Below, piece by piece: positions 16,834 to 39,928 of a stretch of DNA of 40,855 nucleotides. How positions within the stretch are numbered: position 1 is the stretch's first letter; each line of letters opens with the position of its first letter. Below the pieces are notes generated by a model. The model was not told where the DNA came from and searched no databases. It was given only the letters and a program-made list of their open reading frames with translations. This stretch comes from Lachnospiraceae bacterium (GTDB taxonomy: Bacteria > Bacillota > Clostridia > Lachnospirales > Lachnospiraceae), in assembly GCA_024403485.1 (NCBI GenBank), contig JAKSRT010000009.1:1-40855 (forward strand). The letters run 5' to 3'. Both the position numbers and the translations under genes were made by a program.

Positions 16834-16921
16834 TTTAAGTAAGCACGCAGAGCGTGTCCTTTCTTTTTTCACGTATATTTAACATAAATAAAAGCTTTAT
16901 CAAAGATAAGCTTAAAAAATG

Positions 16922-20523: not shown

Positions 20524-20535
20524 ACCAATCACTTC

Positions 20536-21983: not shown

Positions 21984-22085
21984 AAATTATCAACCTTTAT
22001 TTTTATTCTCTAATCACTTCTTGTTGCCGGTTGCTCTTCTAAATATGTGTATGTCAAAGGAAAACCGTGTAAAGTATCTTTAGAT

Positions 22086-22145: not shown

Positions 22146-22191
22146 ACGCAGAGCACTCTACCCTCGATATATCACTCGACGCATTGAACAT

Positions 22192-22226
22192 AAAAAGGCC
22201 GCCCGGAGTTTATTCCGACCAGCCTT
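22192..22226 (-). terminator. Intrinsic terminator after the lipoprotein gene
   Basis: Minus strand: AAGGC...TCGGA pairs imperfectly with TCCG...GCCTT around a short AT loop and is followed by TTTTT. It lies 32 bases past the stop of the small lipoprotein gene. Confidence 0.75.
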
Positions 22227-22258
22227 CTTGCATTTGTAATCGTTACCTGTAATTTCAA

Positions 22259-22660: not shown

Positions 22661-22714
22661 ATCATTCTCCTACCAATAAAATATTTTTGTGAGCTTTCCT
22701 CAACACAGCTTTTG

Positions 22715-22743
22715 AATTTAACATTAAAAGAGCTGTATGTCAA
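22715..22743 (-). promoter_or_regulatory. SigA-type promoter of the lipoprotein gene
   Basis: Minus strand TTGACA (22738-22743), 17-base spacer, TAAATT (22715-22720). The -35 is a perfect consensus match; the -10 matches four of six. It lies about 55 bases before the start codon, in the region shared with the divergent glycosyltransferase gene. Confidence 0.7.
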
Positions 22744-22793
22744 TCTTAATTAGAATATGGACAAAAGAAACTCCTCTGATGTAAATTTATTAT

Positions 22794-24391: not shown

Positions 24392-24423
24392 AAAACAGAC
24401 GACACTTTTGTGCCGTCTGTTTT
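24392..24423. terminator. Bidirectional intrinsic terminator
   Basis: AAAACAGACGACAC (24392-24405), loop TTTT, GTGCCGTCTGTTTT (24410-24423): a 14-base-pair stem with one mismatch, flanked by A and T runs on both sides. It lies between two convergent genes and can serve both. Confidence 0.88.
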
Positions 24424-24452: not shown

Positions 24453-27002
24453 TTAGGACCGTCCCCACTTCTTCTTTCCCGCAAAAATCATAAGCACCGA
24501 TATTACTGCCGATATCGGCAACGTATATGCAAACGGTACCATTCCATAATTCATTCCGCCGTATAGAAGCAGGCATACAACCGTGAACACCCACATGTGC
24601 ACGAAATAAATGTTTGTACTGAGTTTTCTGAAAAAAGGCCAGATTCTTGTTCCCTTAAGATTTAAATTAACTCCAATCATCAGTAAGCCAATACTTTCAA
24701 GAAGATATGGTGCATCTTCGAACTTAGCAGGGAAAGAAAGGAAATATCCAATAAGCAAAAGAAGGGTTCCCGTTTTCCAAGACAACTTCTTTTTCGCAAA
24801 ATATACTCCAAGCGGAATATAGCACAAGCCTCCTAAAACTCTTCCCTTACCGATTGTATTGATTACAATCGCTCTGATTACATCATATACTTTTCCCGCA
24901 TATGCTCCGCTCATCAAATAATCGATAAAGAAACTTACCAGGAATGCTGTCACAGACAAAACAATCCATGTACTTTCTTTTACATTTATTTTAATCAAAA
25001 GAAGCATAAACAGGCATGCGAATATACTGGAAAGCAAATACCACAAAATCCATGAATTGTAGTGTTCTCCCGTAAACAGGAATCCCTGAAGATAATATAG
25101 TATCGCTGTTTTTAAATCAAAATTGTATTGAACATATTCATAAATTGCCAAAGGCAGATATATCACATTCCATATCACATATAGAATGAAAATCTTTTTT
25201 ATATAATCTAATATTATTTTTTTCTTTTCGCTGTATGCCTCACATTTAAGCAGTTTTTTACCGAGAAGAAATCCGGCGGCCAGGAAAAAGAAACCAACGG
25301 CAGGCCTGATAAGTCCTTCAATATAATGACCCTTCCCGGCTTCTATCATCGTGACATGAGGAAGAGTATGAATAGCCACTACAGCCACAGCCATAAGTAT
25401 TTTTATCAAATCAAGGCCGACGTAATTACCTACTACCTCTGTCTTTTCAGATACAAGATATTCCCTTATGCGCATAATACCCGCATTTTCATAGTATTCA
25501 ACCAATTGATCAAAACAAAAAACTGCGAATGGTATCGTGCAAAGATATGCAGGAAATACATACCTTGGCTTGGCCTCCCATATAATACTGAAAAGAAAGC
25601 TTCCAAAAACATAAATCAATGAAAGATATGACAGTAACGGTTCTTCCTGCTTCTTTCGAATCGAAAAGAAGATCTTTAACATGATTACCCCATAAACAAA
25701 AAGCTGAAAAATCTTACAATACTGACCCAACTTCCATAAATAATCAAATTCGTTGTAGAACTTTGAAGCAAACTCTGACTGTCCCTCCGGTTCATAACTG
25801 TTTGTCATATTTAAGCATGAATAAGTAGGGGTATTCCACTGGTAGTTGATTTTTCTGTAATAGAAGTCAACCGCATATTTCGGATCGTCAGCAAACTGAT
25901 TCATTTTTGTTTTGATAGCACTTTTTACAGCCAGCTTTGTGATCGCTGCATCATTGTCATTATTAACAAATACAAGTTGATGATAAAAATTACACCAACC
26001 GGGCATTCCATCGGTATCGCTCAATCCCATACCCACGGTCGCAATCATGGGGATCGCATCAAAATCATCATTTGTATAATCCTTATATATCGCATTGTTT
26101 ATTGCCGTAGGAATAAATGTGCCTGCGAGTACCACAAGAATAAGTATGGCACTTAGGATTCTTTTTTCTTTTTTCAACAATCCGATTGTCAAAAAAATGA
26201 GAATTGCGGCAGTGACTATAAGTGCATTAGTCTTAACAAGATAATTCAAGCCACATGCACAAAATATAATAATAAACTTATATATTTTAGGATTATTTAC
26301 ACATTCACATACCATGTATATTGAAAACATGGTAAGACCTGCGTAAAGCAAGTCGCCGTAAATCATGGGAGTATAGAAGTAAAGAGGAAGACAGAAAAGC
26401 ATAAAAATGCAATATAAAAAACGCAGTTTTGAGGCTTTATCTTTAGGTGCTATGTGCTTAATAATTCCCGAGCCTGAGGCCACAATAATAATAACCGACA
26501 CCGCAAGCACCATCTGATATGCTTTAAAATTACCGTCACCGAACACTTTGTGTATCATTCGAAGAACAGTAACAAAGCCTAACTGATACGGAAAAAAGGT
26601 AAGATAGTCATTGGGAGCGAAGGGCTGCTGAATATGATTATTTATATTCTCTGCAATTTCAATCAAAATCTCCGCATCTGCAGTAGGATACACATTTGCC
26701 GCAAATATCCATGCTGCTGAAATAGCATACATAACCAAGCAGAAAAATCCCGTTATTGCCGCTGCAGGAATTTTATAAAGAAATTTGTCATACAAAATTC
26801 CAAGTCCCTTCAATGCGGCTGTTAAAACAAGAATCCAAAAGGACATATATAAAACATTGTTTCCGTTAAGAATCAGAGCCTCATTGGAGGTATTCAAATT
26901 TATACCGGTGTAAGCCAAGCCCACAAAAAACAGGGCGGCAAACATTATAAGCAGAATAACCCGCAAAATTTTTGTATATGTCAGTTCCTTTAATATCTTC
27001 AT
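24453..27002 (-). CDS. Fusion: GT-C membrane glycosyltransferase plus acyltransferase-3 domain
   Basis: An 849-residue protein of two membrane modules. Residues 1 to about 510 are a GT-C-like glycosyltransferase: an N-terminal helix, the acidic loop YPTADAEILIEIAENIN, many helices, and the late motif IWEAKPRYVFPAYL. Residues from about 535 to 845 form an Acyltransf_3 domain (GLDLIKILMAVAVVAIHTLPHV with the usual histidine; RPAVGFFFLAAGFLLGKKLL; SWILWYLLSSIFACLF; IYFVHMWVF). That family O-acylates glycans with acyl-CoA. The fusion suggests that the sugar is transferred and acylated, or flipped, in one complex. AGGGA lies about seven bases before the start; the gene follows the MurE-like gene by 32 bases and is last in the operon. 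Confidence 0.8.
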   Translation of the reverse strand: MKILKELTYTKILRVILLIMFAALFFVGLAYTGINLNTSNEALILNGNNVLYMSFWILVLTAALKGLGILYDKFLYKIPAAAITGFFCLVMYAISAAWIFAANVYPTADAEILIEIAENINNHIQQPFAPNDYLTFFPYQLGFVTVLRMIHKVFGDGNFKAYQMVLAVSVIIIVASGSGIIKHIAPKDKASKLRFLYCIFMLFCLPLYFYTPMIYGDLLYAGLTMFSIYMVCECVNNPKIYKFIIIFCACGLNYLVKTNALIVTAAILIFLTIGLLKKEKRILSAILILVVLAGTFIPTAINNAIYKDYTNDDFDAIPMIATVGMGLSDTDGMPGWCNFYHQLVFVNNDNDAAITKLAVKSAIKTKMNQFADDPKYAVDFYYRKINYQWNTPTYSCLNMTNSYEPEGQSEFASKFYNEFDYLWKLGQYCKIFQLFVYGVIMLKIFFSIRKKQEEPLLSYLSLIYVFGSFLFSIIWEAKPRYVFPAYLCTIPFAVFCFDQLVEYYENAGIMRIREYLVSEKTEVVGNYVGLDLIKILMAVAVVAIHTLPHVTMIEAGKGHYIEGLIRPAVGFFFLAAGFLLGKKLLKCEAYSEKKKIILDYIKKIFILYVIWNVIYLPLAIYEYVQYNFDLKTAILYYLQGFLFTGEHYNSWILWYLLSSIFACLFMLLLIKINVKESTWIVLSVTAFLVSFFIDYLMSGAYAGKVYDVIRAIVINTIGKGRVLGGLCYIPLGVYFAKKKLSWKTGTLLLLIGYFLSFPAKFEDAPYLLESIGLLMIGVNLNLKGTRIWPFFRKLSTNIYFVHMWVFTVVCLLLYGGMNYGMVPFAYTLPISAVISVLMIFAGKKKWGRS

Positions 27003-27034
27003 CTCAATCCCTATCTATAGAAAACAAGTGCATA

Positions 27035-28483
27035 TTAACTCTGTTTTTTGTATCCCATTTCTTCCAGAACCATATAAGCTCTTTCGATGTCGTTCGGTCG
27101 TTCCACAAGTTCACCCATAGTCATCATATAACGTTCAGCGCCCTTACCCAAAATGAGAATTGTATCTCCCGGTTCAGCATCTTTGATCGCCTTTGTTATC
27201 GCTTCATCACGGTCAACGATGAGTTCGTAGTTTGTTGCATCGGGAACCGTTGCAACCATTGTATCCACAAGCATCTGAGGATCTTCGAATCTGGCATCCT
27301 CGATTGTAAAATAATTGTAATCTGCTGTAGCTGTACAATATTCTGCCATATCGGTTCTTCTGTAAACATCTCTTGAACCGCCTGCTCCAACCACTACCTT
27401 AACCTTTCCGTCGGTCAATGTATCTTTTATATATTCAACCAGATTCTTTACTGCATTGGCAGTGTGAGCATAGTCAACAATTACCTTGAAGGGTTGACCA
27501 CAGTCAACAACTGTCTGTCTTGCCTCAACGGGTGACAATTTCGCCACATACTTGACGATATCGGCTGTAGCAATATCAAAATGAGAGAGACATCCTATTA
27601 CTGCCATCAGGTTATATACATTAAAAATACCGGATAGGTTACATACCACATGGTGCTTTCCAAGTTTTCCGTTTAATGTAAATTCAAGGAAATTGTAGGT
27701 CACATTAACATCTGTCGCATAAATGTCCGCCTTTTCATTAATCGCATATGTAAGAACAGGCGCTCCGGCATGTTCAATAAAAATGTGAGCATAGGGATCA
27801 TCGGCATTTATTACACATATACCTTCGGACTTTGTATATTCCATCAATTTTGCTTTGGCTTCACCGTATTTCTCCATTGTTCCGAATAAATCCAAAGCGT
27901 CTCTCGTTAGATTGGTGAAAATTGATGCGTCAAATGAAACACCATCCATTTTTCCGGTACCCAGTCTTTCACCCGTAGCTTCCATGGAAACATATTCGCA
28001 CTTGTCTTCCTGAAAACCATCAAGAGCCTGGAACAGTTCTTCCTGAAGAGGAGTTGTATAATCATTCTCCTGAGTATAATTCTCGCTTCTTATGCCATTT
28101 GTACCAATATATCCGGTCTTATAACCCATCATGTTAAGAATCTGATACATCATTTCAGATGTTGTGGTTTTACCGTCCGTTCCGGTAACTCCGATCATTG
28201 TAAGCTGACCAAGAGGTGCACCGTAAAAACGATTCAAAATTTCATTCATGGCGCGCTGGGAATCCTTCACGATTACCTGTGGTACATCCACACCTTCAAT
28301 TTCATGCTCACAGACAATTGCTACAGCGCCATTGGCAACAGCACTTTTTGCGTATGTATGACCATCAACCGTCAATCCCTTAACAGCAACAAAAAGGATA
28401 TTCTCTCCCTTTGTTCTGGAATCATCGGATATTTTGCTTATTTCTACATCATATTCGCAAGGATATAACTCTTTTAATTTCAT
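27035..28483 (-). CDS. Divergent MurE-like Mur ligase
   Basis: A 482-residue three-domain Mur ligase. The N-terminal domain has DSRTKGENILFVAVKG and the central ATP site IGVTGTDGKTTTSEM. The carbamylated-lysine segment YGEAKAKLM and FTNLTRD are kept, and the C-terminal domain has DYAHTANAVKNLV and GAGGSRDVYRR. Several invariant MurE positions differ: the SSH-type motif reads MEATGE, FTNLxxDHLD reads RDALD, and the amino-acid specificity motif DNPR reads EDAR. MurE adds L-lysine or meso-DAP to UDP-MurNAc-dipeptide. The changes suggest a different amino acid or acceptor; the adjacent gene would supply 2,4-diaminobutyrate. The gene starts seven bases after the aminotransferase. It could also be the main MurE of a divergent lineage. 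Confidence 0.82.
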   Translation of the reverse strand: MKLKELYPCEYDVEISKISDDSRTKGENILFVAVKGLTVDGHTYAKSAVANGAVAIVCEHEIEGVDVPQVIVKDSQRAMNEILNRFYGAPLGQLTMIGVTGTDGKTTTSEMMYQILNMMGYKTGYIGTNGIRSENYTQENDYTTPLQEELFQALDGFQEDKCEYVSMEATGERLGTGKMDGVSFDASIFTNLTRDALDLFGTMEKYGEAKAKLMEYTKSEGICVINADDPYAHIFIEHAGAPVLTYAINEKADIYATDVNVTYNFLEFTLNGKLGKHHVVCNLSGIFNVYNLMAVIGCLSHFDIATADIVKYVAKLSPVEARQTVVDCGQPFKVIVDYAHTANAVKNLVEYIKDTLTDGKVKVVVGAGGSRDVYRRTDMAEYCTATADYNYFTIEDARFEDPQMLVDTMVATVPDATNYELIVDRDEAITKAIKDAEPGDTILILGKGAERYMMTMGELVERPNDIERAYMVLEEMGYKKQS

Positions 28484-28490
28484 ATACTAT

Positions 28491-29759
28491 TTACCTGCCA
28501 AGTAATTCTTCAATGGAGTCCCTGATAATATCGAGACCCTTAAACAAATCATGTTCAAAAATTGTAAGAGGGGGAAGTATTTTTAATACACAGTCACCTC
28601 TTCCGGCTCTTTCGATAATAAGTCCTTTTTCAAAGCACTTATCCGCAACCTTATGTGAAAAGTCCTTGTCTTCGAATTTACCGAAATCTATACCCCAAAT
28701 AAGTCCTATACCGCGAAGTGAAATCTTCTCATCCAAAGGCATAATTTCTTTTTCGACATATTCCTTAACCAAAGCTCCCTTTGCTACAACCTGTCCGTTA
28801 ACATCATGTTCAACGTTATATTCAATCGCTTTTCTGGCTGCAACAAAAGCAATCTGGTTACCACGGAAAGTACCGTTGTGTTCAGCGGGCTTCCAAATAT
28901 CCAGATCGTCTCTGATAAGAAGCAAAGACATGGGGAAACCGTAACCTCCGATGGATTTGCTGAGAGTTACCATATCAGGCTTGATTCCGGCTCTTTCAAA
29001 AGAAAAGAAGGTTCCGGTTCTTGAGCATCCTACCTGAATATCATCAGCAACAAGCAAAATGTCATTTTCGTGACAGATTTTTTCGAGTCTCTTTAAAAAC
29101 TCGACACTGGCTACATTGATACCGCCTTCTGCCTGAACAGTTTCAATGAACACTGCTGCCGGCTTCTCAATTCCGGAGTGGTCGTCATTCAAAATAGCTT
29201 CAAAATAATCAAGAGAGTCAAACTTTTCTCCCAAACCGTTTTCATAAGGAATAAATGTGACATTATCAAGAGAAACTCCCGCACCGTCACGGCTGGTCTT
29301 ATCGGTTGTAAGTGCGAGGCTTCCAAGTGTCATTCCATGGAATGCTCCCATAAACGCAATAATATTCGAGCGCTTCTTGTTCTTTCTGCAAAGCTTAAGT
29401 GCTGCTTCAACGGCATTGGTTCCGGTGGAGCCGCAGAACATCAACTTATAATTCAGTTCTCTTGGATCCAAAATAAGTTTCTTAAAGGTTTCAATAAATT
29501 TACCCTTTGCTTCTGTGTACATATCCATAGCATGAGTAATATTATCTTTAAGAAGATAATCGATCACTTCACTTTTGATTTCACCGTTGTTGTGTCCGTA
29601 GTTTAATGCACCGCAGCCGGCAAGAAAGTCAATATATTCGTTACCGTCTTCATCCCAAATGGTAGAATTTTTTGCTCCGGTAAATACTACGGGATATTTT
29701 CTGCAGTAAGATCTGACCTGAGATTCGTTTTCTTCAATTATTTTTTTGTATTCGCTCAT
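28491..29759 (-). CDS. Class III aminotransferase, diaminobutyrate--2-oxoglutarate type (EctB-like)
   Basis: A 422-residue PLP enzyme with strong resemblance to EctB/Dat. Seen: VRSYCRKYPVVFTGAKNS, IDFLAGCGALNYGHNN, GSTGTNAVEAALKLCRK, AFHGMTLGSLALTTDK, FIETVQAEGGIN, VADDIQVGCSRTGTFFSFE (Asp/Gln contacting PLP), LSKSIGGYGFPMS (the Schiff-base lysine is in LSKS) and EHNGTFRGNQIAF. It should make L-2,4-diaminobutyrate from aspartate semialdehyde and glutamate. No ectA, ectC or siderophore decarboxylase is nearby, so ectoine is unlikely and the product may feed the adjoining ligases. AGAGGAG lies four or five bases before the ATG, below a long intercistronic hairpin. Confidence 0.88.
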   Translation of the reverse strand: MSEYKKIIEENESQVRSYCRKYPVVFTGAKNSTIWDEDGNEYIDFLAGCGALNYGHNNGEIKSEVIDYLLKDNITHAMDMYTEAKGKFIETFKKLILDPRELNYKLMFCGSTGTNAVEAALKLCRKNKKRSNIIAFMGAFHGMTLGSLALTTDKTSRDGAGVSLDNVTFIPYENGLGEKFDSLDYFEAILNDDHSGIEKPAAVFIETVQAEGGINVASVEFLKRLEKICHENDILLVADDIQVGCSRTGTFFSFERAGIKPDMVTLSKSIGGYGFPMSLLLIRDDLDIWKPAEHNGTFRGNQIAFVAARKAIEYNVEHDVNGQVVAKGALVKEYVEKEIMPLDEKISLRGIGLIWGIDFGKFEDKDFSHKVADKCFEKGLIIERAGRGDCVLKILPPLTIFEHDLFKGLDIIRDSIEELLGR

Positions 29760-29773
29760 ATTACTCCTCTATA

Positions 29774-29822
29774 AGCATTCAATTGGTTTAACACTTACAT
29801 TTTGGTAAGAGTCTTGAATGCT
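29774..29822 (-). other. Intercistronic hairpin before the aminotransferase gene
   Basis: AGCATTCAA (29774-29782) pairs with TTGAATGCT (29814-29822), and CTTAC/GTAAG (29794-29798/29805-29809) forms an inner stem. In the transcript it ends just upstream of the AGAGGAG ribosome binding site. No U-tract follows, so I read it as a processing or translation-control structure rather than a terminator. Confidence 0.5.
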
Positions 29823-29853
29823 GCATATTATCATATGATTCGCTTTTTTGTTT

Positions 29854-31725
29854 TTAAACATATACCGGCTTCTTTGGAACTTCGTTATTTATAAAGTAGA
29901 TTTCATACCAGATAAGAAAAGCGTACACCGTGTAAATTTTACGCCCGTTGTTCCAGCGGCCACTGTGATGTTCTTCAAGAAGTGCCATAAGTTCATTGAC
30001 ATTAAAGAACTCCGAAACCCAATCTTTACTAAACATCGTTTTAACTTCGATGTACCACTTATCTTCTTTAATCCAATCCTTGAAAGGAACAAGGAAGCCA
30101 AGCTTCTTTCTCTTTGCCCATTCTTCAGGAATGGTTTTATTGGCAGCAGTTCTGAAAGCATATTTTGTAACATAATCATGAATAATGTACTGAAGCGGTA
30201 TCTCTTCGCTTACCTTAAATACCTCGCGGTCAAGGAAAGGAACTCGAAGTTCAAGAGAATTGGCCATAGTCATTTTGTCTGCCTTTAATAAAATGTCATA
30301 AGGAAGCCACAAATGCATGTCCGTATACATTTTCTTTAGCAAGTCAGGCTTATCCTTAATTTCATCAAATATAGGCTTTGTTACTTCCTGATATTTTTTA
30401 CCATTTCTGTATTCGGGTTTAAGGAGTAAATCCGCTTCTTCATTGTTCATGATAAACGCCTGTCCAATGTATGAATCTTCAAGCTTAGAACCTGCTTTTA
30501 TAAGAAAATGTCTTCCCTTCATGTTAGGCATTTTAAGAGCAATGTTTTTCATCATCTTGCGGAAACCATAAGGTAGCTTCATATATTTTGCATACTCTCT
30601 GGGTGTTTCGTACTCATAATATCCTCCAAAGAGTTCATCGGCACCTTCACCGGAAAGAACTACCTTAACCTCCTTGGATGCCATATTGGCCAGGAAGTAA
30701 AGCGGAACCGCAGAAAGGTTTGCGTGAGGTTCATCTGAATGATATTGAACCGTAGGCAGAATATCAAAAAACATTTCAGGGGTAATATCCTTCTGCTGAT
30801 GTTTCATGCCAAGAATTTCGCATAAGCCGTGTGCATCTCCGATTTCGTTAAATCCGGGAGCAGTAATGTCACCCGCAAAACCAACAGTAAATGCCTTGTC
30901 TACATTGGCATTGGCTACAATATAGCTTGAATCAACACCGCTTGATAAGAATGCTCCGACTTCAACATCAGATATTTTGTGATATTCGATACTTGATTTC
31001 ATGATGTCATTAATCTTATTAACGGCCGTATCAAGATCGTCGTTGTTGTTTCTGTAGTTGATTTTAAAATACTGACGGATTTCCATCTTACCGTCTTTGT
31101 ATGTAAAGCAGTGTCCCGGATTAAGCTTATGTACATTCACAAAGAAAGTATCGGTAGGAACAGAATACTGATACATAAGATAGGTTTTTAATGCATCTTT
31201 ATTCAATTCCTTCTTGAAATCAGGATGATGCAAAAAGGATTTTATTTCGGAACCGTACATGAACAGTTCATCGGTTGTGTAGTAGTAAAAAGGCTTAATA
31301 CCAAAGGGATCTCTGGCTCCGAAAAGTTCCTGCTTGTTTCGATCCCAAATTACAAAACCAAACATTCCGCGAAGATGGTCCACAATGTCTTTTCCATACT
31401 GCTCATAACCGTGAACTATTACTTCGGTATCGGAGTTTGTAGTAAAAACATGACCTGCCTTGACAAGCTCTTCACGAATTTCTTTATAGTTATATATTTC
31501 ACCGTTGAAATTAATTACAAGTGATTTATCTTCGTTGAAAAGAGGCTGGTCTCCAAGACTTAAGTCAATAATACTCAGTCTTCTGAATCCCATAGCCACC
31601 TTATCATCGCAAAAGAAACCTTCTCCGTCAGGTCCTCTGTGTTTAATGGCATCTGCCATTTTGTGAACTATAGGGTCTTTTTCATTTGAAGGCAAGCCAT
31701 CAATAAATCCTGCGAATCCGCACAT
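29854..31725 (-). CDS. asnB: Glutamine-hydrolysing asparagine synthase-family amidotransferase
   Basis: A 623-residue AsnB-type enzyme. The N-terminal class II glutaminase starts with the nucleophile Cys2 (MCGFAGFID) and has RGPDGEGFF, RRLSIIDL and INFNGEIYNY. The synthetase domain has the pyrophosphate loop LSSGVDSSYI near residue 260, LSGEGADELFGGY and KADKMTMANSLELRVPFLD. All catalytic motifs seem intact. It may make asparagine, but family members such as LtsA/AsnB amidate the DAP side chain of peptidoglycan. The position between a peptide-type ligase and a MurE-like ligase makes an amidating role here plausible. AGGAGAAGG lies close before the ATG. Confidence 0.93.
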   Translation of the reverse strand: MCGFAGFIDGLPSNEKDPIVHKMADAIKHRGPDGEGFFCDDKVAMGFRRLSIIDLSLGDQPLFNEDKSLVINFNGEIYNYKEIREELVKAGHVFTTNSDTEVIVHGYEQYGKDIVDHLRGMFGFVIWDRNKQELFGARDPFGIKPFYYYTTDELFMYGSEIKSFLHHPDFKKELNKDALKTYLMYQYSVPTDTFFVNVHKLNPGHCFTYKDGKMEIRQYFKINYRNNNDDLDTAVNKINDIMKSSIEYHKISDVEVGAFLSSGVDSSYIVANANVDKAFTVGFAGDITAPGFNEIGDAHGLCEILGMKHQQKDITPEMFFDILPTVQYHSDEPHANLSAVPLYFLANMASKEVKVVLSGEGADELFGGYYEYETPREYAKYMKLPYGFRKMMKNIALKMPNMKGRHFLIKAGSKLEDSYIGQAFIMNNEEADLLLKPEYRNGKKYQEVTKPIFDEIKDKPDLLKKMYTDMHLWLPYDILLKADKMTMANSLELRVPFLDREVFKVSEEIPLQYIIHDYVTKYAFRTAANKTIPEEWAKRKKLGFLVPFKDWIKEDKWYIEVKTMFSKDWVSEFFNVNELMALLEEHHSGRWNNGRKIYTVYAFLIWYEIYFINNEVPKKPVYV

Positions 31726-31773
31726 ATCCTTCTCCTAACAACTAATTTTCTTATTAATCTGTCAAACATCAGA

Positions 31774-33000
31774 TTATATGGTATTTTTATTTTTCTTATA
31801 TTTCTTTTTGTAATTTGTTGCTCTTAATATCAAGTAAAGCTTATGCTTAAAGGACTTCTCACCTTTGTATTTAAGGGGATCCACCTTTTTATGCTCTTTC
31901 CAAAGTTTAAGCGCCTCTGCTTTATAATCATCATTAAGCACATACTTTTTGAGTACGCTCTTTGGCACCATGGAAAGAAGAACCTTGTCTTCAAGCAGTT
32001 CAAATTCTTTTTCCTTACCCTCAAATACATCATCAACAAGAGTGGTAATAAGATTATGTCCAAGAGCGCAGAGATAATAACTTGAGCGCGCCTGACGAGG
32101 ATTGATTTCCATTACCTTAAAGGTATTGTCACGTCTGTCGTATTTAAGATCAAATTCAGCGAAGCCGTTATATCCGATTCCTTCAAGGAAATTCTTAAGT
32201 TCTTCCACGGTTTCTTTAGTCTTTCCAAAGGCGTTATATCCGTTCATCAATACAGTACAATTTCCGATTGCCGATGGAGAGTGCTCCTGTAAACCAATCT
32301 GGGCAAAAGAAGCAAGTTCCGCTTTTCCCTTGGTATTTACATAGAATACGCAGTCAAACAGATAGGAATCATCTCCCGGAATAAACTCCTGAACAATCAA
32401 TGTATCTTTATATCCGGAAGCTTTAACTCTATTAATAAACTCAACAGCATTATCGGGAGTTGTCGCCTTAAATACTTTAGGCTGTCCCGCAAAATGGTGG
32501 CGATTGTATTCTATGCCATTACTTGGTTTAATAATCAGCGGATAATACATATCCTTGGGAATAGGTTCGGTTTTTTCTTCGCTGCAGTTATAATAAAGGG
32601 TTTTTGCAAACTTAAGTCCCGCCTTGGAAAAAGCCTTATAAAAAGTTTCTTTGACAAGAAATGCATTAACAATCTTTAAGTTTGGACTGTTAAAAACAAA
32701 ATATTCGGAAATTTTCTCCGCATTTTCCACAAGGAGTCTTACATATACATCATGACATGGAATGGCGAGGATCTTTTCCCCCGTAAAATTAGCCTTTCCG
32801 TATTCAAGCATTGCATTTACAAAGCCTTCGTCTTCTTTAAGATCCGGATGATACGTAATATTCACTATCGATGAAAACTGCGTAAATCTTATAGGCTCGG
32901 TTGCAATTACATCAATAGGCTCTTTGAATGCTTCATGATAGCATCTTGCCATATAATAGGTATTCATGTCTGAACCGATAAGGCATATTTTATGATCCAT
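31774..33000 (-). CDS. ATP-grasp ligase, D-aspartate-ligase-like
   Basis: A 408-residue ATP-grasp protein. An N-terminal pre-ATP-grasp fold opens with ICLIGSDMNTYYMARCYHEAF, which resembles the start of the Enterococcus D-aspartate ligase (Aslfm). Then come YPLIIKPSNGIEYN (the ATP-binding lysine), LIVQEFIPGDDSYLFDC (the hinge), and FKVMEINPRQARSSYYL, the metal-binding EINPR motif. The last 45 residues are very basic (KYKKNKNTI at the end). Such ligases form an amide or acyl-amine bond with ATP. Since it follows a racemase gene by only 20 bases, as the Enterococcus ligase follows an aspartate racemase, a D-amino acid is a likely substrate. Confidence 0.82.
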   Translation of the reverse strand: MDHKICLIGSDMNTYYMARCYHEAFKEPIDVIATEPIRFTQFSSIVNITYHPDLKEDEGFVNAMLEYGKANFTGEKILAIPCHDVYVRLLVENAEKISEYFVFNSPNLKIVNAFLVKETFYKAFSKAGLKFAKTLYYNCSEEKTEPIPKDMYYPLIIKPSNGIEYNRHHFAGQPKVFKATTPDNAVEFINRVKASGYKDTLIVQEFIPGDDSYLFDCVFYVNTKGKAELASFAQIGLQEHSPSAIGNCTVLMNGYNAFGKTKETVEELKNFLEGIGYNGFAEFDLKYDRRDNTFKVMEINPRQARSSYYLCALGHNLITTLVDDVFEGKEKEFELLEDKVLLSMVPKSVLKKYVLNDDYKAEALKLWKEHKKVDPLKYKGEKSFKHKLYLILRATNYKKKYKKNKNTI

Positions 33001-33020
33001 TTTAACAGGCTCCTTAATAA

Positions 33021-34190
33021 TTATTCTTTATATATTCTCGGAATCGATGAATCAAGATTTGTCATCAATTCGTACATAGTGGTCATTACATGTCTGGTTA
33101 TTGTTCTGATGGGAATATCTCCCCCAAATACCGTAACCTTGTCGTACTTTTTAACGCTGTCGTCTACTTTTATTTCACACATACCCATTCCGATTTCTCC
33201 GATTATAGGGTATTTCTTTCCATTAATTGCTACGCTGCTGCCTACACGTTTTCTGTTTATTCCATCACCGTATCCGGTATCAATGGTGGCAACAATCTCA
33301 TCCTCCTCAGCCAAATGAAGCATTCCGTAACCAACATACTCGCCTTTTTTTGCCTTCTTAACCTGAATTACTTCGGTGTATAGAGTAAGCGCTGTTTTTA
33401 AATCAAGTTCCGGGTACGGCTTTACAGGCTTCACGTGATTCTTTTTATTAATCATATCATGCTTGAGTTTACGAAGTCGTCCTTTAATATCGCTTGAATA
33501 CTTGTTCATAAGATTAAAGCCGTAAAGAACAACCCCAAAGCGGACGGCGGTAGTAAATCCGGGCTTTTCATGGGCCATAACGGTCTGGCTTTTATCAACA
33601 TGTACCATGGGTATGTCTTTAAGCGGAATACCAGCAGTAAGCTCTACAAAGCGGTTATAATCTCTTTCATATTCAGTATCTGAAAGTCCTGTTGTATGAA
33701 AATGAGTAAATATTCCTTCAACAGTAAGTTTTTCATTTTTCACCGCTTCGCTATATATTCTCTCGAGCTCCGATTTCTCCTTAAATCCAAGACGGTTCAT
33801 GCCGCAATCGACTTTTATGTGAAGCTTTAAATCTAAACCCGATTCCACAATGTCAATAAATGTTTCCGAATCGTTAACACATACGGAAATATTATTGTCG
33901 GCACATATTCCGTAATACTCTTTATGAACAGGTTCCAGCATTATAACCGGAAGTTCCCTTTCATACTCACGTACCTTAAGGGCCTCATTTAGATTGGATA
34001 CGGCATAAGCATTTATCCCGCCCTTTTTCAGTGCCGGAATAATACCGTATCCGTGACCGTATGCATTTCCTTTTACAACGGCTATATAATATTTGTGCGG
34101 ATATTCCCGGGTGAGAATTCGCGCATTATTTTCCAAAATTGAGTTGTCGATTTCAATGAAGGTTTTTCTGTAATCAATCATCTCTGTCAT
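33021..34190 (-). CDS. alr: Alanine racemase-family PLP enzyme
   Basis: A 389-residue fold-type III racemase. The PLP lysine is Lys40 in AVVKGNAYGHG. HIKVDCGMNRLGF, EGIFTHFHTT and ATIDTGYGDGINR are family motifs, and VGYGMLHL contains the expected catalytic tyrosine. Two oddities: a basic insertion of about 30 residues after the VRFGVVLYG motif (SSDIKGRLRKLKHDMINKKN region), and IGEIGMGMCEI where most alanine racemases have a 'cMD' motif. These could mean a substrate other than alanine. It is the first gene of the six-gene operon, and its spacing of 20 bases from the ATP-grasp gene argues for a joint role. Confidence 0.85.
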   Translation of the reverse strand: MTEMIDYRKTFIEIDNSILENNARILTREYPHKYYIAVVKGNAYGHGYGIIPALKKGGINAYAVSNLNEALKVREYERELPVIMLEPVHKEYYGICADNNISVCVNDSETFIDIVESGLDLKLHIKVDCGMNRLGFKEKSELERIYSEAVKNEKLTVEGIFTHFHTTGLSDTEYERDYNRFVELTAGIPLKDIPMVHVDKSQTVMAHEKPGFTTAVRFGVVLYGFNLMNKYSSDIKGRLRKLKHDMINKKNHVKPVKPYPELDLKTALTLYTEVIQVKKAKKGEYVGYGMLHLAEEDEIVATIDTGYGDGINRKRVGSSVAINGKKYPIIGEIGMGMCEIKVDDSVKKYDKVTVFGGDIPIRTITRHVMTTMYELMTNLDSSIPRIYKE

Positions 34191-34305: not shown

Positions 34306-34331
34306 AGTGCGGTGGAATATTCCACCGCACT
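34306..34331 (-). terminator. Intrinsic terminator after the CtpA-type protease gene
   Basis: A perfect 26-base palindrome, arm AGTGCGGTGGAAT and its complement, followed on the minus strand by TTTTTG. It begins six bases beyond the protease stop codon and separates the ftsEX operon from the racemase operon. Confidence 0.9.
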
Positions 34332-34336
34332 AATAT

Positions 34337-35596
34337 TTAATGTCCCAATTTATCATGAATGCACTCTAATGCCGCATCAAGCTGAGTATCAATCTTATCA
34401 TCACTGTAATAAAGATCCGCATCCAGATCAACTTCTATATCAGGTGCAATACCTTTCTTGTGAATACATTCGCCGTTAGGCGTAAAATAACTGCTTGTTG
34501 TAATCTTTAAGCCGGTACCGTCACCAAGCGAATAAATCTGCTGAACAATACCTTTACCGAATGTATTTTTACCCACAATAGTGCCTTTACCGTAATCTCT
34601 TATAGCACCGGTCATAAGCTCTGATGCACTGGCACTATATTCATTGACAAGAACCACCAGCGGGATTTCGATGGGGTGTTTTCCCTTTCCCTTATAGTCC
34701 TCACGATTGCCGTATTTATCAACCGTATAGGTTATTGTTCCCTCGGGAAGAATATATTCACAAATACCTACTACTGTATCAAGATTTCCGCCCGGATTGC
34801 TTCTAAGGTCTAAAATTAAAGCTTCCATGCCCTGCTTATTCAAGTCATCATAAGCCTCTTTAAACTGTTCGAGAGTAACCTCATCAAACTCGGTTATCTG
34901 AAGGTAACCTATCTTATCCTCTTTCATTTCATAAATAACGGTAGGCGTTTCAATCTTTCCACGTGTTACCGTTATATCAAGATAATCACTTTCACCTTCA
35001 CGAATAATTGTTATAACAACATCCGTATCTATAGGACCCTTTATGAGGTTAGTAACCTCAGTAAGAGTCATACCGCTGATTTCGGTTCCGTCTACAGCAA
35101 AAATAAAATCCCCATCTCTTATACCGGCTTTTTGAGCAGGTGACTTTTCAAAAACACCTGAGAACATAGGAAGATTTCTTGTTTCATCCATTGTTACATA
35201 CGAACCGACACCATAATATATCCCTTCACTCTCCTCAAAAAGGGCCGCCAGTTCTTCTTTTGTATAATAAACGGTATAAGGATCATCCATGGAATTAAGA
35301 ACTGCAGCATATATATCTTCCTGCATCTTCTCTACATCCACATCTTCTTCAAAGTAAAAATAATTATCTATATATTTGTAGATTTTTTCTACCTTTGTAG
35401 CCACATCTGAGTTAATAACCGTTCCGTCAGCAGAGATACTGTTTCCCCCGCTATTTTTTAATATATTGGAATAGTGTTTTGCCTGACTCGAAATTAATAT
35501 ACATGAAGCAATGGTCATAATAAGCGTTGCAACTACTACTCCGGCAATTATTCCTCCCCAAAAGGATTTTCTTTTTTCTTTCTTTAAAGCTTCCAT
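34337..35596 (-). CDS. S41-family C-terminal processing protease (CtpA) with PDZ domain
   Basis: A 419-residue membrane-anchored serine protease. One N-terminal helix (GGIIAGVVVATLIMTIASCILI) is followed by a helical segment, a PDZ domain (SPAQKAGIRDGDFIFAVDGTEISGMTL) and the protease domain with LILDLRSNPGGNLDTV. The Ser/Lys pair lies in NEYSASASELMTGA (Ser near residue 318) and VGKNTFGKGIVQQ (Lys about 25 residues later). CtpA enzymes trim or degrade cell-wall hydrolases. Here it follows an M23 endopeptidase by 34 bases, which suggests it matures or destroys that hydrolase. It is last in the operon. Confidence 0.94.
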   Translation of the reverse strand: MEALKKEKRKSFWGGIIAGVVVATLIMTIASCILISSQAKHYSNILKNSGGNSISADGTVINSDVATKVEKIYKYIDNYFYFEEDVDVEKMQEDIYAAVLNSMDDPYTVYYTKEELAALFEESEGIYYGVGSYVTMDETRNLPMFSGVFEKSPAQKAGIRDGDFIFAVDGTEISGMTLTEVTNLIKGPIDTDVVITIIREGESDYLDITVTRGKIETPTVIYEMKEDKIGYLQITEFDEVTLEQFKEAYDDLNKQGMEALILDLRSNPGGNLDTVVGICEYILPEGTITYTVDKYGNREDYKGKGKHPIEIPLVVLVNEYSASASELMTGAIRDYGKGTIVGKNTFGKGIVQQIYSLGDGTGLKITTSSYFTPNGECIHKKGIAPDIEVDLDADLYYSDDKIDTQLDAALECIHDKLGH

Positions 35597-35630
35597 ATTT
35601 CTTCTCCAACTTCATGGAAACTGTTTGGGA

Positions 35631-36887
35631 TTAGCCCAAATAATTCCAAGGACTTACATATGTTCCGTTCAGACGAACGGTAAAGTGCAGATGGTTACCG
35701 GTTGAACTTCCGGTGGTACCCACTGCAGCTATTTTTTCGCCTCTTACCACCACTGTTCCGGGACTTACATACAGTTTACTGGCATGCATATATATGGTAA
35801 ACAACCCATCGCCGTGATCAATCATGACATAATTTCCCATTGACCAGTTATAAGTAGCCGCCACAACCACGCCGTCATAAGCGGCTAAAATCGGGCTTCC
35901 CGCAGGGGCACCCATATCCAAACCACTATGGAATTCGGATTTACCGGAAAAAGGATTGCTTCTCCATCCGAATTCTTCGGTAATACGAATATATTGAGGA
36001 CACGGCCACGCAAATACACCACCGTCATAGGTCACTTTGTTTGCAGCTGCGGCCAAAGCTTTCTTTTCTTCAAGAATAGCTGCTTCCAATGCTTCTATTG
36101 CTGAAACTTCTGCTGCATATGCAGCTTCCGCACTGTTAATATCAGCTTGTGCCTGACTGATTTGTTTATTGTAATTTGCCAGCTCGGTTTCTTTTTCGGC
36201 CAACATAACTTCTAAAGTTTCTTCTTCACTTTCAGCCGTCACCTTGGCTTCATCGAGGGCTTCCTTGTCAGCCTCTAAATTAGCTTTGCAAAGTTCCGTC
36301 CATTCTCTGGTGGCTCTGTATTCTTCGAGACATTTCTTTTCATAAGCTTCGAGCTGATCCACATAGCTGGCTTTTGTCAAAAAATCACTGAAAGATTTGG
36401 CATCAAGCATTATCTCAAGGTAGAATGAATCACCCTGCTCATACATGAACTTAATCTGGTCTTTCATTGCCTGATACTGCTTTTCTTCAGTTTCTATTGC
36501 TATGCGAAGATCTTCGGTTGCCACTTCAATTTCAACTTCTTTTTCAGCAATAAGCGTGTTAAGTTCTTCGATATGATTATTTAATTCTTCAATCTGCTCA
36601 TCAAGCTTTGATATATATGCAGCTACATCGGCTTTTAAGCCCTCCAATTCCTTCTTAAGTTTCTTGGAGTCCGAAATACTTGATTGCAGTTTCTTCTTTA
36701 ACGCTTCGGATTCTTTAATCTGTTCCTGCTTTTCGCGAATACTGTCATTGGTCAAAGTACCGGATGAAGTATTTCCCGCATAAGCCTTAGGTACCGATAA
36801 TCCCAGTGAAAGACAAAAAATCAATACTATTGTTAATGCTCTTTTTACTTTTGATTTAGTTTTACGGCTTACTTTGATTTTATACAT
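35631..36887 (-). CDS. Secreted coiled-coil M23 (LytM) endopeptidase, EnvC-like
   Basis: A 418-residue secreted protein. Signal peptide ALTIVLIFCLSLGLSVPKAYA, then a 230-residue coiled coil rich in Glu/Lys/Leu/Ala (residues about 45-290), and a C-terminal LytM domain. The metal ligands are intact: EFHSGLDMG (His and Asp) and GNHLHFTV (His), with IYMHAS between. E. coli EnvC lacks such ligands and only activates amidases, so this protein is probably a true endopeptidase. The coiled coil is the part expected to contact FtsX, whose gene ends 24 bases upstream; FtsEX-driven control of cell-separating hydrolysis is the likely role (as with PcsB or CwlO elsewhere). Confidence 0.92.
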   Translation of the reverse strand: MYKIKVSRKTKSKVKRALTIVLIFCLSLGLSVPKAYAGNTSSGTLTNDSIREKQEQIKESEALKKKLQSSISDSKKLKKELEGLKADVAAYISKLDEQIEELNNHIEELNTLIAEKEVEIEVATEDLRIAIETEEKQYQAMKDQIKFMYEQGDSFYLEIMLDAKSFSDFLTKASYVDQLEAYEKKCLEEYRATREWTELCKANLEADKEALDEAKVTAESEEETLEVMLAEKETELANYNKQISQAQADINSAEAAYAAEVSAIEALEAAILEEKKALAAAANKVTYDGGVFAWPCPQYIRITEEFGWRSNPFSGKSEFHSGLDMGAPAGSPILAAYDGVVVAATYNWSMGNYVMIDHGDGLFTIYMHASKLYVSPGTVVVRGEKIAAVGTTGSSTGNHLHFTVRLNGTYVSPWNYLG

Positions 36888-36911
36888 CTAAGCTCCCAAA
36901 CAAATAAAATT

Positions 36912-37808
36912 TTATACATGAAGATGCTTTCTGACAGTTGAAAAGCTTCCGAAAAAGCCTATTCCCACACCGATTATCAAGGATATAGGAACCAATGTTT
37001 TATAAATAGCCTCAATGGTAAGGAAATTGAGAAGTGATGACAAAACCGAAAACTGTCCTGTCACAAACTCAATTGCCTTGTTATAGAGAAAATAGATAAG
37101 GCCAAGAGGAAGCGCAGCTCCGATAAATCCGATAAGCATACCTTCAATTACAAAGGGTGCTCTTACAAAAAAGTCAGTGGCCCCGATATATTTCATAATA
37201 CTGATTTCTTCTTTACGAACGGAAATACCAATCATAACCGTATTGCTTATAAGGAATACCGAAACCGCAAAAAGAATCAAAATAATACCTGCCGAAACAT
37301 ATCCCACAAGTTTATTTACACCGTCCAATGTCATGGCTGTAAGTTCGCTTCTTTTAACCTCTCTTACACCGTCCACGGATTCCAAAAAAGAAACCAGGGA
37401 ACTCTGCATTGAAACATCGCTAAGATATATCTCATAGTTTGCGGAATCCGCAAGAGGGTTTTCAAGAAATCCTTCACTGTATTCACCAAGATAGTCCTCT
37501 TTAAAGCTGTCCCAGGCTGCATCGGCAGAAACAAAATTAATATCCGAAACTTCTGCACGCTTACGTATAATCTCACCAATTTCATCGATACGTTTATCCG
37601 TTATGCCCTCGTCAAAGAATACTACAACGCAAACTCCTTCTTCAGCTGTTTTTACGATATTTTGGAAGTTGGCCAAAACCGCATAGAAAATGCCAAAAAG
37701 AAAAAGACAGGCAGCTATAGTAGCTATGGAAGCAAGCGAAAATAATTTGTTTCTGAAAATATTTTTAATACCCTGCCAGAGAGTATAAAACAATGTACTA
37801 ATCTTCAT
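36912..37808 (-). CDS. ftsX: Cell division ABC transporter permease FtsX
   Basis: A 298-residue permease with four membrane helices: one near residue 25 (LFSLASIATIAACLFLFGIF), then a large extracellular loop of about 130 residues, and three helices in the C-terminal half (LVGYVSAGIILILFAVSVFLISN; FVIEGMLIGFIGAALPLGLIYF; VPISLIIGVGIGFFGSF). The RKEEISIMKYIGATDFFVRAPF segment is the coupling region typical of FtsX. Its start overlaps the end of ftsE by 11 bases. The loop should bind the adjacent M23 protein. Confidence 0.96.
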   Translation of the reverse strand: MKISTLFYTLWQGIKNIFRNKLFSLASIATIAACLFLFGIFYAVLANFQNIVKTAEEGVCVVVFFDEGITDKRIDEIGEIIRKRAEVSDINFVSADAAWDSFKEDYLGEYSEGFLENPLADSANYEIYLSDVSMQSSLVSFLESVDGVREVKRSELTAMTLDGVNKLVGYVSAGIILILFAVSVFLISNTVMIGISVRKEEISIMKYIGATDFFVRAPFVIEGMLIGFIGAALPLGLIYFLYNKAIEFVTGQFSVLSSLLNFLTIEAIYKTLVPISLIIGVGIGFFGSFSTVRKHLHV

Positions 37809-38526
37809 CGATATACACCCCGTTCTCCTGATCGCTGATTATTACACCCTTGTTAAGGGTAATAACTCGCTTACTCATAGAATTAACGATATTTTTATCG
37901 TGAGTTACCATGATAATGGTAGTGCCTGCTGCATTTATTTCTTCAAACAATGACATAATTTCCGCGGAAGTTTTGGGATCGAGGTTACCTGTGGGCTCAT
38001 CGGCAAGGAGAATTGTAGGCTTGTTAACCAAAGCTCTTGCAATGGCTACTCTTTGCTGTTCGCCACCCGAAAGCTGATTGGGCCTAACTCTGTATTTTCC
38101 GGCAAGTCCGACCGTCGCAAGCACAGTAGGTACATTTCTTCTGATTTCACGACCGGGCGTCTGGATAATACGCTGTGCAAATGCAACATTTTCGTAAACA
38201 TTTCTGTCTTTCAAGAGTCTGAAATCCTGGAATACCACACCGATATTTCTTCTGTATTTAGGTACTTTTCTGTGCGGAAGTCTTTTAAGATCATGATTTA
38301 ATACATAAATATTACCTTCCGTAGGTGAAAGTTCCTTCAAAAGAAGCTTCGTGAATGTAGACTTACCCGAACCGGACTCACCTACAACGAATACAAACTC
38401 ACCCTTTTTAATTGTCAGGCTGACATCTTCAAGTGCATGTGCATTATTATCTTTATATATTTTCGTAACATGGTCCAGTACGATGGCTTCATCGTCTTCC
38501 ATGTATCTTCTTCTACGTCTGGGCAT
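37798..38526 (-). CDS. ftsE: Cell division ATP-binding protein FtsE
   Basis: A 242-residue ABC ATPase with Walker [16 protein letters not shown]-loop VFQDFRLL, signature [15 protein letters not shown], Walker [13 protein letters not shown] and the H-loop VTHD. It has a short basic extension before the ABC domain ([13 protein letters not shown]). The ATG overlaps the stop of the upstream regulator gene (TAATG), an unusual coupling of a cell-division ATPase to a PucR-type regulator. Confidence 0.97.
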
Positions 38527-39611
38527 TATTTTTCTGTCTCCATATACTTCATGTATTTAACTACCATAAGAGCAATTTTAAAGGTAATAGCATCTTCAAA
38601 TACTCTAAGGTCAAGACCTGTAGACTTTTGAAGTTTATCAAGTCTGTATACAAGAGTATTTCTGTGAATGTATAACTGACGGGAGGTCTCCGATACATTA
38701 AGACTGTTTTCAAAGAAACGCATAATTGTATCAAGAGTCTCTTCTTCAAAATCATCAGGACTCTTTCCTCCGAAAATTTCTTTGATGAACATCTTGCAAA
38801 GAGGGAGAGGAAGCTGATAAATAAGTCGTCCTATTCCAAGTTCCGAATAAGCAACGATGTCTCTTTCGGTAAAGAAAATCTTTCCAACATCCATCGCCAT
38901 CTTCGCTTCTTTGTAAGAACGGCTTACCTCTTTAATTTCTCCAACCGCTGTTCCGTATGCAATATGGACATTGGCATTTCCTTCTTTTTCAAGAGTAGTG
39001 ATAATTGCTCTTGCAGCCTTTTCAACCTCTCTGTCATAATCGTTGTCTTCTATTTCTTTAACTACGATTACATCGCTTTCATCTACAGCTGTAATGAAAT
39101 CATCTGAGTTGGAACCAAAATGTGTTCTTACGCTTTCAAGAACATTGAAATCTTTATGATTGTCGGTTTCGATAATCATTACCACTCTTTTGGCTTCCGG
39201 AGTAATATGCAATTTTTTGGCGCGGCTGTATATATCAACCAAAAGCAGGTTGTCCAAAAGAAGGTTTTTAACAAAATTATCTCTGTCAAAGCGTTCCTTG
39301 TATGCCACCATCAGATTCTGAATCTGAAAAGCAACCATTTTACCGATCATGTACACATCCTCACCTGTTCCGCAGGCAATAAGAATATATTCGGGAGTGT
39401 TTTCATCGTAAATTTTGAAGTAGAGATAACCCTGAATCTCCTGATAGTCAGCCGGAGACTGAGCAAATTCCCTGGCCTGTCTCGATACATCGTTAAGTCC
39501 GGTTGTGGTTGATACAACCTCTCTGCCTTCAGTGTCCACCACGCAAAGTTCAACTCTTGAAATGGCTTTTAATCCGTCAATGGTATTTTGTAAAACCTGG
39601 TTTGATATCAT
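38526..39611 (-). CDS. PucR/CdaR-type transcriptional regulator
   Basis: A 361-residue regulator. The N-terminal half starts MISNQVLQNTIDGLKAISR and looks like the putative sugar-diacid-recognition domain (VDTEGREVVSTT, FAQSPADYQEIQGYLYFKIYD, AFQIQNLMVAYKERF). A GGDEF-like middle domain follows. The C-terminal helix-turn-helix is typical of PucR_C/HTH_30: FFENSLNVSETSRQLYIHRNTLVYRLDKLQKSTGLDLRVFED is its core. I chose ATG 39611 with GAGGA eight bases upstream over a GTG at 39638. Classic members sense glycerate or related acids; the co-transcription with ftsEX suggests a wall- or growth-related signal here. Confidence 0.88.
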   Translation of the reverse strand: MISNQVLQNTIDGLKAISRVELCVVDTEGREVVSTTTGLNDVSRQAREFAQSPADYQEIQGYLYFKIYDENTPEYILIACGTGEDVYMIGKMVAFQIQNLMVAYKERFDRDNFVKNLLLDNLLLVDIYSRAKKLHITPEAKRVVMIIETDNHKDFNVLESVRTHFGSNSDDFITAVDESDVIVVKEIEDNDYDREVEKAARAIITTLEKEGNANVHIAYGTAVGEIKEVSRSYKEAKMAMDVGKIFFTERDIVAYSELGIGRLIYQLPLPLCKMFIKEIFGGKSPDDFEEETLDTIMRFFENSLNVSETSRQLYIHRNTLVYRLDKLQKSTGLDLRVFEDAITFKIALMVVKYMKYMETEK

Positions 39612-39928
39612 ATAGTCGTCCTCACTAGTAATTTTCACTACACTTTTGCGCCAAAAATCATAGTCTATTTTTCCAATGTAAGTATTATTTTATAACAATT
39701 TACTCATATTTTCCATATAGAATTTATGTTTTTTATGCAATTTTTTGAGTATTACCGAGTTAATAACATATTTTCTGCATTAAAAAATAAACAAAAAAAC
39801 ACAAAAAGAACCATCGACAGCATAACTATAGCGCTCAAAAATGTTCTTTTTGTGTATATTTTACAAATACTTATGTGAATTTTATCCAAATCAGCAAACA
39901 AAAATTGTTGTTTTTGACAACAGTAAAC
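39612..39928 (-). other. Upstream region of the regulator-ftsEX operon
   Basis: This 317-base stretch has no gene. It holds the terminator of the CvfB-like gene (39799-39855) and a very AT-rich leader (39640-39790) that must contain the operon promoter. Several TATAAA/TAAAAT-like and TTGCAT/TTGTTA-like words occur, but no pair is convincing. Confidence 0.5.
39799..39855 (-). terminator. AT-rich intrinsic terminator after the CvfB-like gene
   Basis: Minus strand: ACACAAAAAGAAC (39843-39855 complement) pairs with GTTCTTTTTGTGT (39799-39811 complement), a perfect 13-base-pair stem around a 31-base loop, directly followed by TTTTTTG. The loop is long for a terminator and contains GCGC and AGCAT words. 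Confidence 0.72.

Follow-up and report, generated by a model that had tools for sequence, protein, structure and literature searches.

A stretch of 40,855 nucleotides, contig JAKSRT010000009.1 from a 73% complete, 2.19-Mb genome of a Lachnospiraceae bacterium and referred to here as the window, contains a run of six minus-strand genes for a paralogue of the alanine racemase Alr, an ATP-grasp ligase, an amidotransferase of the AsnB/AsnH type, the diaminobutyrate aminotransferase EctB, the stem peptide ligase MurE and a membrane protein (Table 1). The coordinates and the gaps of 20, 48, 94, 7 and 32 bases between the genes are as described in the original prediction, which was made from the letters of this DNA and which read the run as a six-gene operon. 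Combining gene content, motifs and conservation, we suggest that (i) the operon is very probably a dedicated module for a non-standard stem peptide or cross-bridge of the main cell wall, and (ii) as a tentative reading that falls just short of an even balance, this module is of a non-diaminopimelate type that would place L-2,4-diaminobutyrate (L-Dab) at stem position 3 and attach a D-amino acid bridge.

Table 1. Features of the operon and its flanks in the window.
Feature	Position	Strand	Basis
Alr-family pyridoxal phosphate-dependent racemase paralogue	33021..34190	-	profile families, pocket alignment
ATP-grasp ligase, AslA/Aslfm (D-aspartate ligase) type	31774..33000	-	homology, structure model
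AsnB/AsnH-type glutamine amidotransferase, asparagine synthase family	29854..31725	-	profile families
EctB-type L-2,4-diaminobutyrate:2-oxoglutarate aminotransferase	28491..29759	-	above TIGR02407 cut-off
MurE, sole copy found	27035..28483	-	above TIGR01085; E395-D396-A397-R398 in place of DNPR
Membrane protein, glycosyltransferase C (GT-C)-like N-terminal half (weak) and Acyl_transf_3 C-terminal half	24453..27002	-	Pfam; accessory
Intrinsic terminator 3' of ctp, upstream operon boundary	34306..34331	-	11-pair hairpin and T run
3' terminator-like hairpin, between operon and convergent gene 22794-24359	24392..24423	-	14 pairs, 3' arm ending TTTT
Upstream neighbours: PucR-type regulator, FtsE-like ATPase, FtsX, PcsB-like M23 hydrolase, S41 (Ctp) protease	34337..39638	-	families
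uvrB and uvrA, downstream flank	13972..18919	-	families

The MurE protein has three Mur ligase domains and scores above the curated cut-off of its profile. Eight matches to Mur_ligase_M were found in the window genome, comprising the operon MurE, MurF, MurC, two MurD ends, two FolC-like proteins and a MurT beside GatD, the latter pair identified by Pfam; the Mur ligase C42, considered as a canonical MurE, turned out to be MurF. The murE profile gives exactly one match above cut-off in each of G000, G206 and G299-G303, always the orthologue of the operon MurE, and in G206, a congener that is 97% complete, the operon-type protein is the only MurE found. Because the SDNPR-bearing MurE proteins of ordinary Lachnospiraceae score strongly (432-458 bits in four genomes and 358 in G067), a second MurE would not escape through weakness. 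We therefore reject a specialised MurE next to a canonical one, which the original prediction had implied, and, with the only MurE found lying in the operon, the operon MurE most likely builds the main wall. The link of the operon to the cell wall is strong.

Among 18 genomes of the genus searched, 16 contain the operon-type MurE (69-83% identity), the window genome counted among them, and in all 16 the motif DNPR, which binds meso-diaminopimelate (mDAP), reads EDAR. In the 29 nearest MurE proteins from outside the genus that we read, SDNPR is kept throughout. The operon MurE thus lacks the DNPR that marks mDAP-type enzymes, yet on overall score it passes NCBIfam NF001126, the mDAP ligase family (421.8 versus a cut-off of 373). 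Nor does it fully fit the Lys type, which has a DNPA-like motif without Arg together with the Glu of the GKG.E loop: the Arg is kept. The Glu of GKGAE is present. A structure model of the protein appears nearest to the Lys-type MurE of Staphylococcus aureus. At residues 167-172 a second active-site change is seen, the acceptor-side MEVSSH being MEA(T/S)GE in 16 of 16 genus members. The original prediction was to fail if this were the only murE and the stems were ordinary Lys or DAP stems; the first half of this holds, and the change in the motif makes a DAP stem less likely.

Dab at position 3 is suggested chiefly by the linkage of EctB to MurE. EctB scores 579.1 bits against the TIGR02407 equivalog cut-off of 552.2, and its gene immediately precedes that of MurE in 14 of 16 genomes of the genus, the window included; the two exceptions, G699 and G686, are cut by a contig end at this point, and another fragment of G686 holds AsnB, EctB and the beginning of MurE. 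At a threshold of E <= 1e-100, EctB is present in 10 of 299 Lachnospiraceae genomes and, in the loci read, adjoins MurE only in two genus members. Ectoine synthase EctC was not found above cut-off in any of the 16 genomes, the two weak matches, in G206 and G693, falling below it, which led us to reject an ectoine operon, and Dab is probably made next to the sole MurE and not for ectoine. In eight other Lachnospiraceae (L124 = G054, L125-L131) EctB lies away from MurE in the stretches read, and in G054 it precedes a 3306-residue open reading frame that is possibly a peptide synthetase using Dab.

The ATP-grasp protein gives weak profile matches (ATPgrasp_Ter, CPSase, PRK12767) and no real phmmer match among solved structures; its structure model, of modest quality (mean predicted local distance difference test score, pLDDT, 62.7), appears to match ATP-grasp enzymes (E 1e-10, template modelling (TM) score about 0.4). 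Its family is indicated by homology and by its pairing with an amino acid racemase gene, as expected for AslA/Aslfm: it is 30% identical over 404 columns to a carboxylate-amine ligase of Latilactobacillus curvatus in PLSDB, whose gene directly follows that of a PF01177 Asp/Glu-family racemase and which, from this gene pair, we infer to be AslA. A relative from Lactobacillus crispatus, also in PLSDB, is encoded directly after asnB; this asnB and ligase pair (L196) is on a 96-kb record, plasmid p1, and if the plasmid record is right, a cross-bridge module is carried on a mobile element in L. crispatus. The matching Subdoligranulum record has no annotation across the matched stretch.

A survey of the ligase family in the 299 Lachnospiraceae genomes gave matches in 33, two of these in the genus of the window. 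Four weak matches among the 31 others were left aside, and the remaining 27 genomes provided 28 loci that were read with their flanks, counting as neighbours a MurE gene within 3.5 kb on the same strand and a RacD-like gene within 3.5 kb. MurE adjoins the ligase in 19 of 28 loci; these proteins are 23-30% identical to the operon MurE, have no adjoining EctB, and in none of the 19 is place 4 of the motif Arg ((E/D)DPG in 16 and DEPG, DEPD and DNPT in one each). RacD-like genes are near the ligase in 13 loci (11 on the same strand, two on the opposite) and AsnB-type genes in five, three of them on the opposite strand. DapF was not found in three genomes tested whose single MurE is of the DPG type. 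In three clusters (L115, L116 and L122, from G032, G232 and G296) genes for an AEDPG and an SDNPR MurE stand together beside RacD-like and ATP-grasp genes, which may enable these species to make stem peptides of two kinds. In L087 and L123 (G126 and G291) a FemAB gene directly adjoins the ligase, and a mixed bridge from both enzyme types is possible there.

These ligase-linked MurE proteins, which lack the mDAP Arg and mostly carry Glu and Asp at places 1 and 2, together with the predicted likeness of the operon MurE to the S. aureus enzyme, would also suit a Lys- or ornithine-type stem with a D-Asp bridge, EctB having another substrate or its Dab being used elsewhere. Given an EctB above its equivalog cut-off directly upstream of MurE in 14 of 16 genomes, and no ectoine synthase above cut-off, we consider such a stem decidedly unlikely.

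The operon racemase is an intact Alr paralogue. It scores 242.7 bits and the alr product C80 scores 364.1 bits, both passing the cut-off of 168, so that by score the housekeeping alanine racemase would be the other copy. A VanT-type D-Ser resistance enzyme was rejected, its scores being far under the VanT cut-offs (172.3 versus 460 bits for vanT-G-Cterm). In the pocket alignment the position of the active-site Tyr, which we take to be Y354 of the Geobacillus enzyme, is changed in the operon copy and also in the better-scoring C80. A search for Asp/Glu-family racemases in eight genus genomes found one each in five and none, hence no MurI, in G206, 97% complete, and in G000 and G687, both incomplete; in these three a D-amino-acid transaminase may supply D-Glu. 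Four of the family members were read (L180, L181, L186 and L188); they lie off the operon contig and lack the MurI-type start of L189 and L190. With such racemases absent or encoded elsewhere, the operon racemase is a natural source of the D-amino acid for the ligase. Its product would most likely be D-Asp, which fits the ligase family and leaves a free carboxyl for amidation; D-Dab and D-Ser are possible.

The amidotransferase has the features of AsnH, namely a class II glutaminase with N-terminal MCG, an asparagine synthase domain and a gene linked to that of the ligase, and it is 42% identical to the asnB product of L. crispatus. A second asparagine synthase-type copy is present in the window genome, and the operon protein is thus not its only candidate asparagine synthetase. 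Both C80 and this copy answer the call of the original prediction for a second alr and a second asnB in the genome.

The presence of a racemase together with a source of Dab in the operon might also indicate a type B wall such as the B2gamma wall of Clavibacter, in which the racemase would make D-Dab that bridges from D-Glu next to an L-Dab stem; in the part of PMC9603630 used here, B2gamma walls are described as holding both L-Dab and D-Dab. MurT/GatD, present in the window genome (the sole genome checked), amidates D-Glu, whose alpha-carboxyl the type B link needs, and AslA-type ligases act on stem residue 3 according to the excerpt of PMC4155827 on which we draw. Such a wall is therefore improbable here.

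The order Alr, ATP-grasp ligase, AsnB, EctB, MurE is kept in seven named relatives as far as their contigs extend, and since the same order recurs across relatives the five-gene cassette is not due to chance. These relatives are metagenome-assembled genomes of Lachnospiraceae, two with record titles naming yak omasum and horse faeces and others with RUG or RUI labels that presumably refer to rumen collections. Some are the same assemblies as members of the genus set (L013 = G206; G299-G303 by contig and position), so that the samples are not independent, and the shared order among proteins of 69-83% identity is evidence of linkage retained from one ancestor rather than of repeated invention. 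The operon-type MurE is present in six of six genus genomes with at least 90% completeness and at most 5% contamination; the two genomes without a match are G691 (72% complete) and G694 (89% complete, 6% contamination).

The gene for the membrane protein, whose N-terminal half gives a PMT_2 match below cut-off and whose C-terminal half matches Acyl_transf_3, directly follows MurE in only eight of 16 genus genomes. We therefore regard five genes as the core unit and the sixth, which was considered as a core part and rejected as such, as accessory. The six-gene operon of the original prediction, and the co-occurrence of its six families that was to be sought across relatives, are accordingly borne out genus-wide for five genes and fail for the GT/acyltransferase gene, whose dispensability also leaves unsupported the proposal that its product links the module to, or decorates it with, an acylated sugar. 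A separate muropeptide-like conjugate or natural product, decorated by this protein, was suggested by the unusual gene mix and by the membrane gene standing next in the window, and it is very improbable with the only MurE found sitting in the operon and the membrane gene not following MurE in half of the relatives.

Based on these data we propose the following pathway: (i) EctB would transaminate aspartate semialdehyde to L-Dab, (ii) the sole MurE would attach L-Dab, instead of mDAP or Lys, at stem position 3, (iii) the Alr paralogue would supply a D-amino acid, most likely D-Asp, (iv) the AslA-type enzyme would couple it to the amine on the side chain of residue 3, and (v) the AsnH-type enzyme would amidate the remaining carboxyl. 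The expected unit would be L-Ala-D-iGln-L-Dab(D-iAsn)-D-Ala-D-Ala (iGln, isoglutamine; iAsn, isoasparagine), and cross-linking through the D-amino-acid bridge would give an A4-like wall with Dab. The data establish the gene families, that of the ligase included, the single MurE, its changed motif and the retained linkage, and the substrates assigned to the five enzymes are inferred. That a whole genus of gut Lachnospiraceae has dropped mDAP for such a wall, with one operon coupling EctB to the sole MurE, is a bolder proposition that we hold to be possible, though somewhat less likely than not.

Several observations weigh against this pathway. The Arg of DNPR is retained in the operon MurE and missing from the ATP-grasp-linked MurE proteins elsewhere, and Glu and Asp at places 1 and 2 recur in 14 of 19 of the latter, which have no adjoining EctB. 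DapF is present in seven of seven lineage genomes tested, so that mDAP, also the lysine precursor, is available. The racemase is an Alr paralogue and not RacD, and its substrate is not readable from sequence. G160 has both EctB and an ATP-grasp/MurE pair, on separate contigs. A FemX tRNA-dependent bridge enzyme was found in none of six of the seven lineage genomes searched, and such a bridge was rejected; the seventh, G697, has a partial FemAB match (30 bits versus a Pfam cut-off of 24). Nine of the 28 ligase loci are without MurE in the neighbourhood, including the closest in the tree, L105-L107 (G245, G249 and G272), whose ligases are 37% identical and lie among housekeeping genes (by eye, rlmB, sigma-factor and cysS-like genes). 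The MurE of G249 and that of G272 carry SDNPR, and no MurE above cut-off was found in G245; the ligase therefore does not strictly imply a non-DAP wall. Glu at place 1, initially taken as a sign of a shorter diamine, was withdrawn in view of the 14 of 19, and we argue that the two residues speak against mDAP and not for Dab specifically; because they are shared with MurE proteins lacking an adjoining EctB, our confidence in a Dab stem was lowered slightly from an even balance.

Alternatively, mDAP (or Lys) stays at position 3, Dab, perhaps as D-Dab made by the Alr paralogue, is the bridge attached by the ligase, and AsnB amidates the mDAP carboxyl like AsnB1 of Lactiplantibacillus plantarum. 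The DapF genes, the retained Arg and the sharing of one operon by racemase, ligase and EctB would all fit, and amidation of mDAP by AsnB1 is known from the part of PMC4155827 consulted. The changes of D to E, N to D and P to A fall exactly at the mDAP site in 16 of 16 MurE proteins, the first two are common to the MurE proteins of genomes without a DapF match (such as G160 and G294), and the same source describes the AslA family as adding beta-activated D-Asp. We consider this alternative unlikely, and continue to favor L-Dab as the stem residue.

The original prediction placed strong terminators on both sides of the operon, and strong hairpins were found at both boundaries. The downstream one folds with -20.5 kcal/mol (z -4.9) and is absent from the list of the terminator pattern scan. 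That scan gave 18 terminator-like patterns over a 14-kb stretch versus 10.2 expected by chance; some lie inside the operon, and the intragenic ones are weak. The 94-base AsnB-EctB spacer (29760-29853) folds above shuffles (z -3.25). By match ends, it measures about 10-15 bases in L009, L011, L013, L014 and L015 and about 54 in L012. A known RNA element was rejected here, an Rfam scan of the whole window at gathering scores having given no known RNA element, this spacer included, and the spacer being far shorter in most relatives. In L012 (8812-8835) Ctp and Alr are nearly contiguous, leaving no space for the terminator seen in the window, and ctp may thus share a transcript with the module in some species.

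The genes for the FtsE-like ATPase, FtsX, PcsB-like hydrolase and Ctp precede the module in L011-L015; L010 has Ctp alone before its contig end, and L009 has another upstream region, so that this flank is not universal. The upstream neighbours are probably outside the pathway. Downstream, uvrB follows immediately after MurE in G206 and after the GT/acyltransferase gene in L014. In the window, the interval between operon and uvrB (18937-24359) holds an MBOAT acyltransferase gene (20536-21435), a gene for a 531-residue protein that matches no Pfam family and one (22794-24359) for a membrane protein related to the N-terminal half of the last operon product, and is perhaps a surface-polymer island.

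The third stem residue decides recognition by the host sensors NOD1 and NOD2 and determines which transpeptidases and hydrolases are usable. The split in NOD1/NOD2 sensing is treated in the sections of PMC3829189 and PMC11382707 that we used, and a table in the latter review has no wall type entered for three of four Lachnospiraceae genera. PMC3829189 also describes that overexpression of a Lys-type MurE kills Escherichia coli. If our proposal is true, gut Lachnospiraceae would have a Dab-based wall chemistry that is not known from elsewhere in the phylum, a residue hitherto associated with actinobacterial walls would gain a linked gene set, and EDAR together with ectB would serve as a sequence signature for finding such walls. 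Within the open-access literature searched, the proposal would be without precedent both as a gene-level pathway for a Dab-type stem and as a wall of this kind in Bacillota; among the papers listed there, none reports Dab in walls of Lachnospiraceae or Clostridia or ectB-murE linkage, an absence that counts only weakly. Novelty appears to lie in the gene set, the phylum and the A4-like arrangement, the L-Dab residue itself being already known in bacteria. Of the ideas in the original prediction, an alternative stem peptide and/or cross-bridge is supported by the conserved co-occurrence and diaminobutyrate as the likely special residue has gained support, and the separate conjugate is unlikely since the operon holds the only MurE found.

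A likeness in predicted wall chemistry is seen with Clavibacter (Actinomycetota), whose B2gamma peptidoglycan has an L-Dab stem according to the part of PMC9603630 cited here, with Dab at position 3 also mentioned in a portion of PMC11555704. L-Dab at stem position 3 is what we predict for the operon, but the Clavibacter cross-link is of type B, from D-Glu via D-Dab. Dab walls are known in Microbacteriaceae. The MurE of Thermotoga maritima (4bub) similarly has Asp for Asn and keeps the Arg (DDPR versus EDAR); however, it is an LD-lysine ligase, and EDAR has Glu first and no Pro. With the ectoine operon ectABC the module shares EctB, but no EctC was found above cut-off in the genus, and EctA was outside the search. 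The AslA-type ligases beside MurE in other Lachnospiraceae are likewise paired with a MurE without DNPR, mostly with Glu and Asp at places 1 and 2, but there 17 of 19 have G at place 4 (the others D or T), EctB does not adjoin them and a RacD-like gene is often nearby. Among lactic acid bacteria, the part of PMC4155827 used here describes an operon shared by RacD and AslA, with AsnH as the amidase of the D-Asp bridge and MurT/GatD as that of D-Glu. This D-Asp bridge pathway (racD, aslA/aslfm, asnH, murT/gatD) likewise combines a racemase, an ATP-grasp carboxylate-amine ligase and an asparagine-synthase-type amidase, so that the statement in the original prediction that no named pathway has this gene set fails for these three and stands for what is new in the operon: an Alr-type racemase in place of RacD, EctB, and the inclusion of a MurE whose motif is changed to EDAR.

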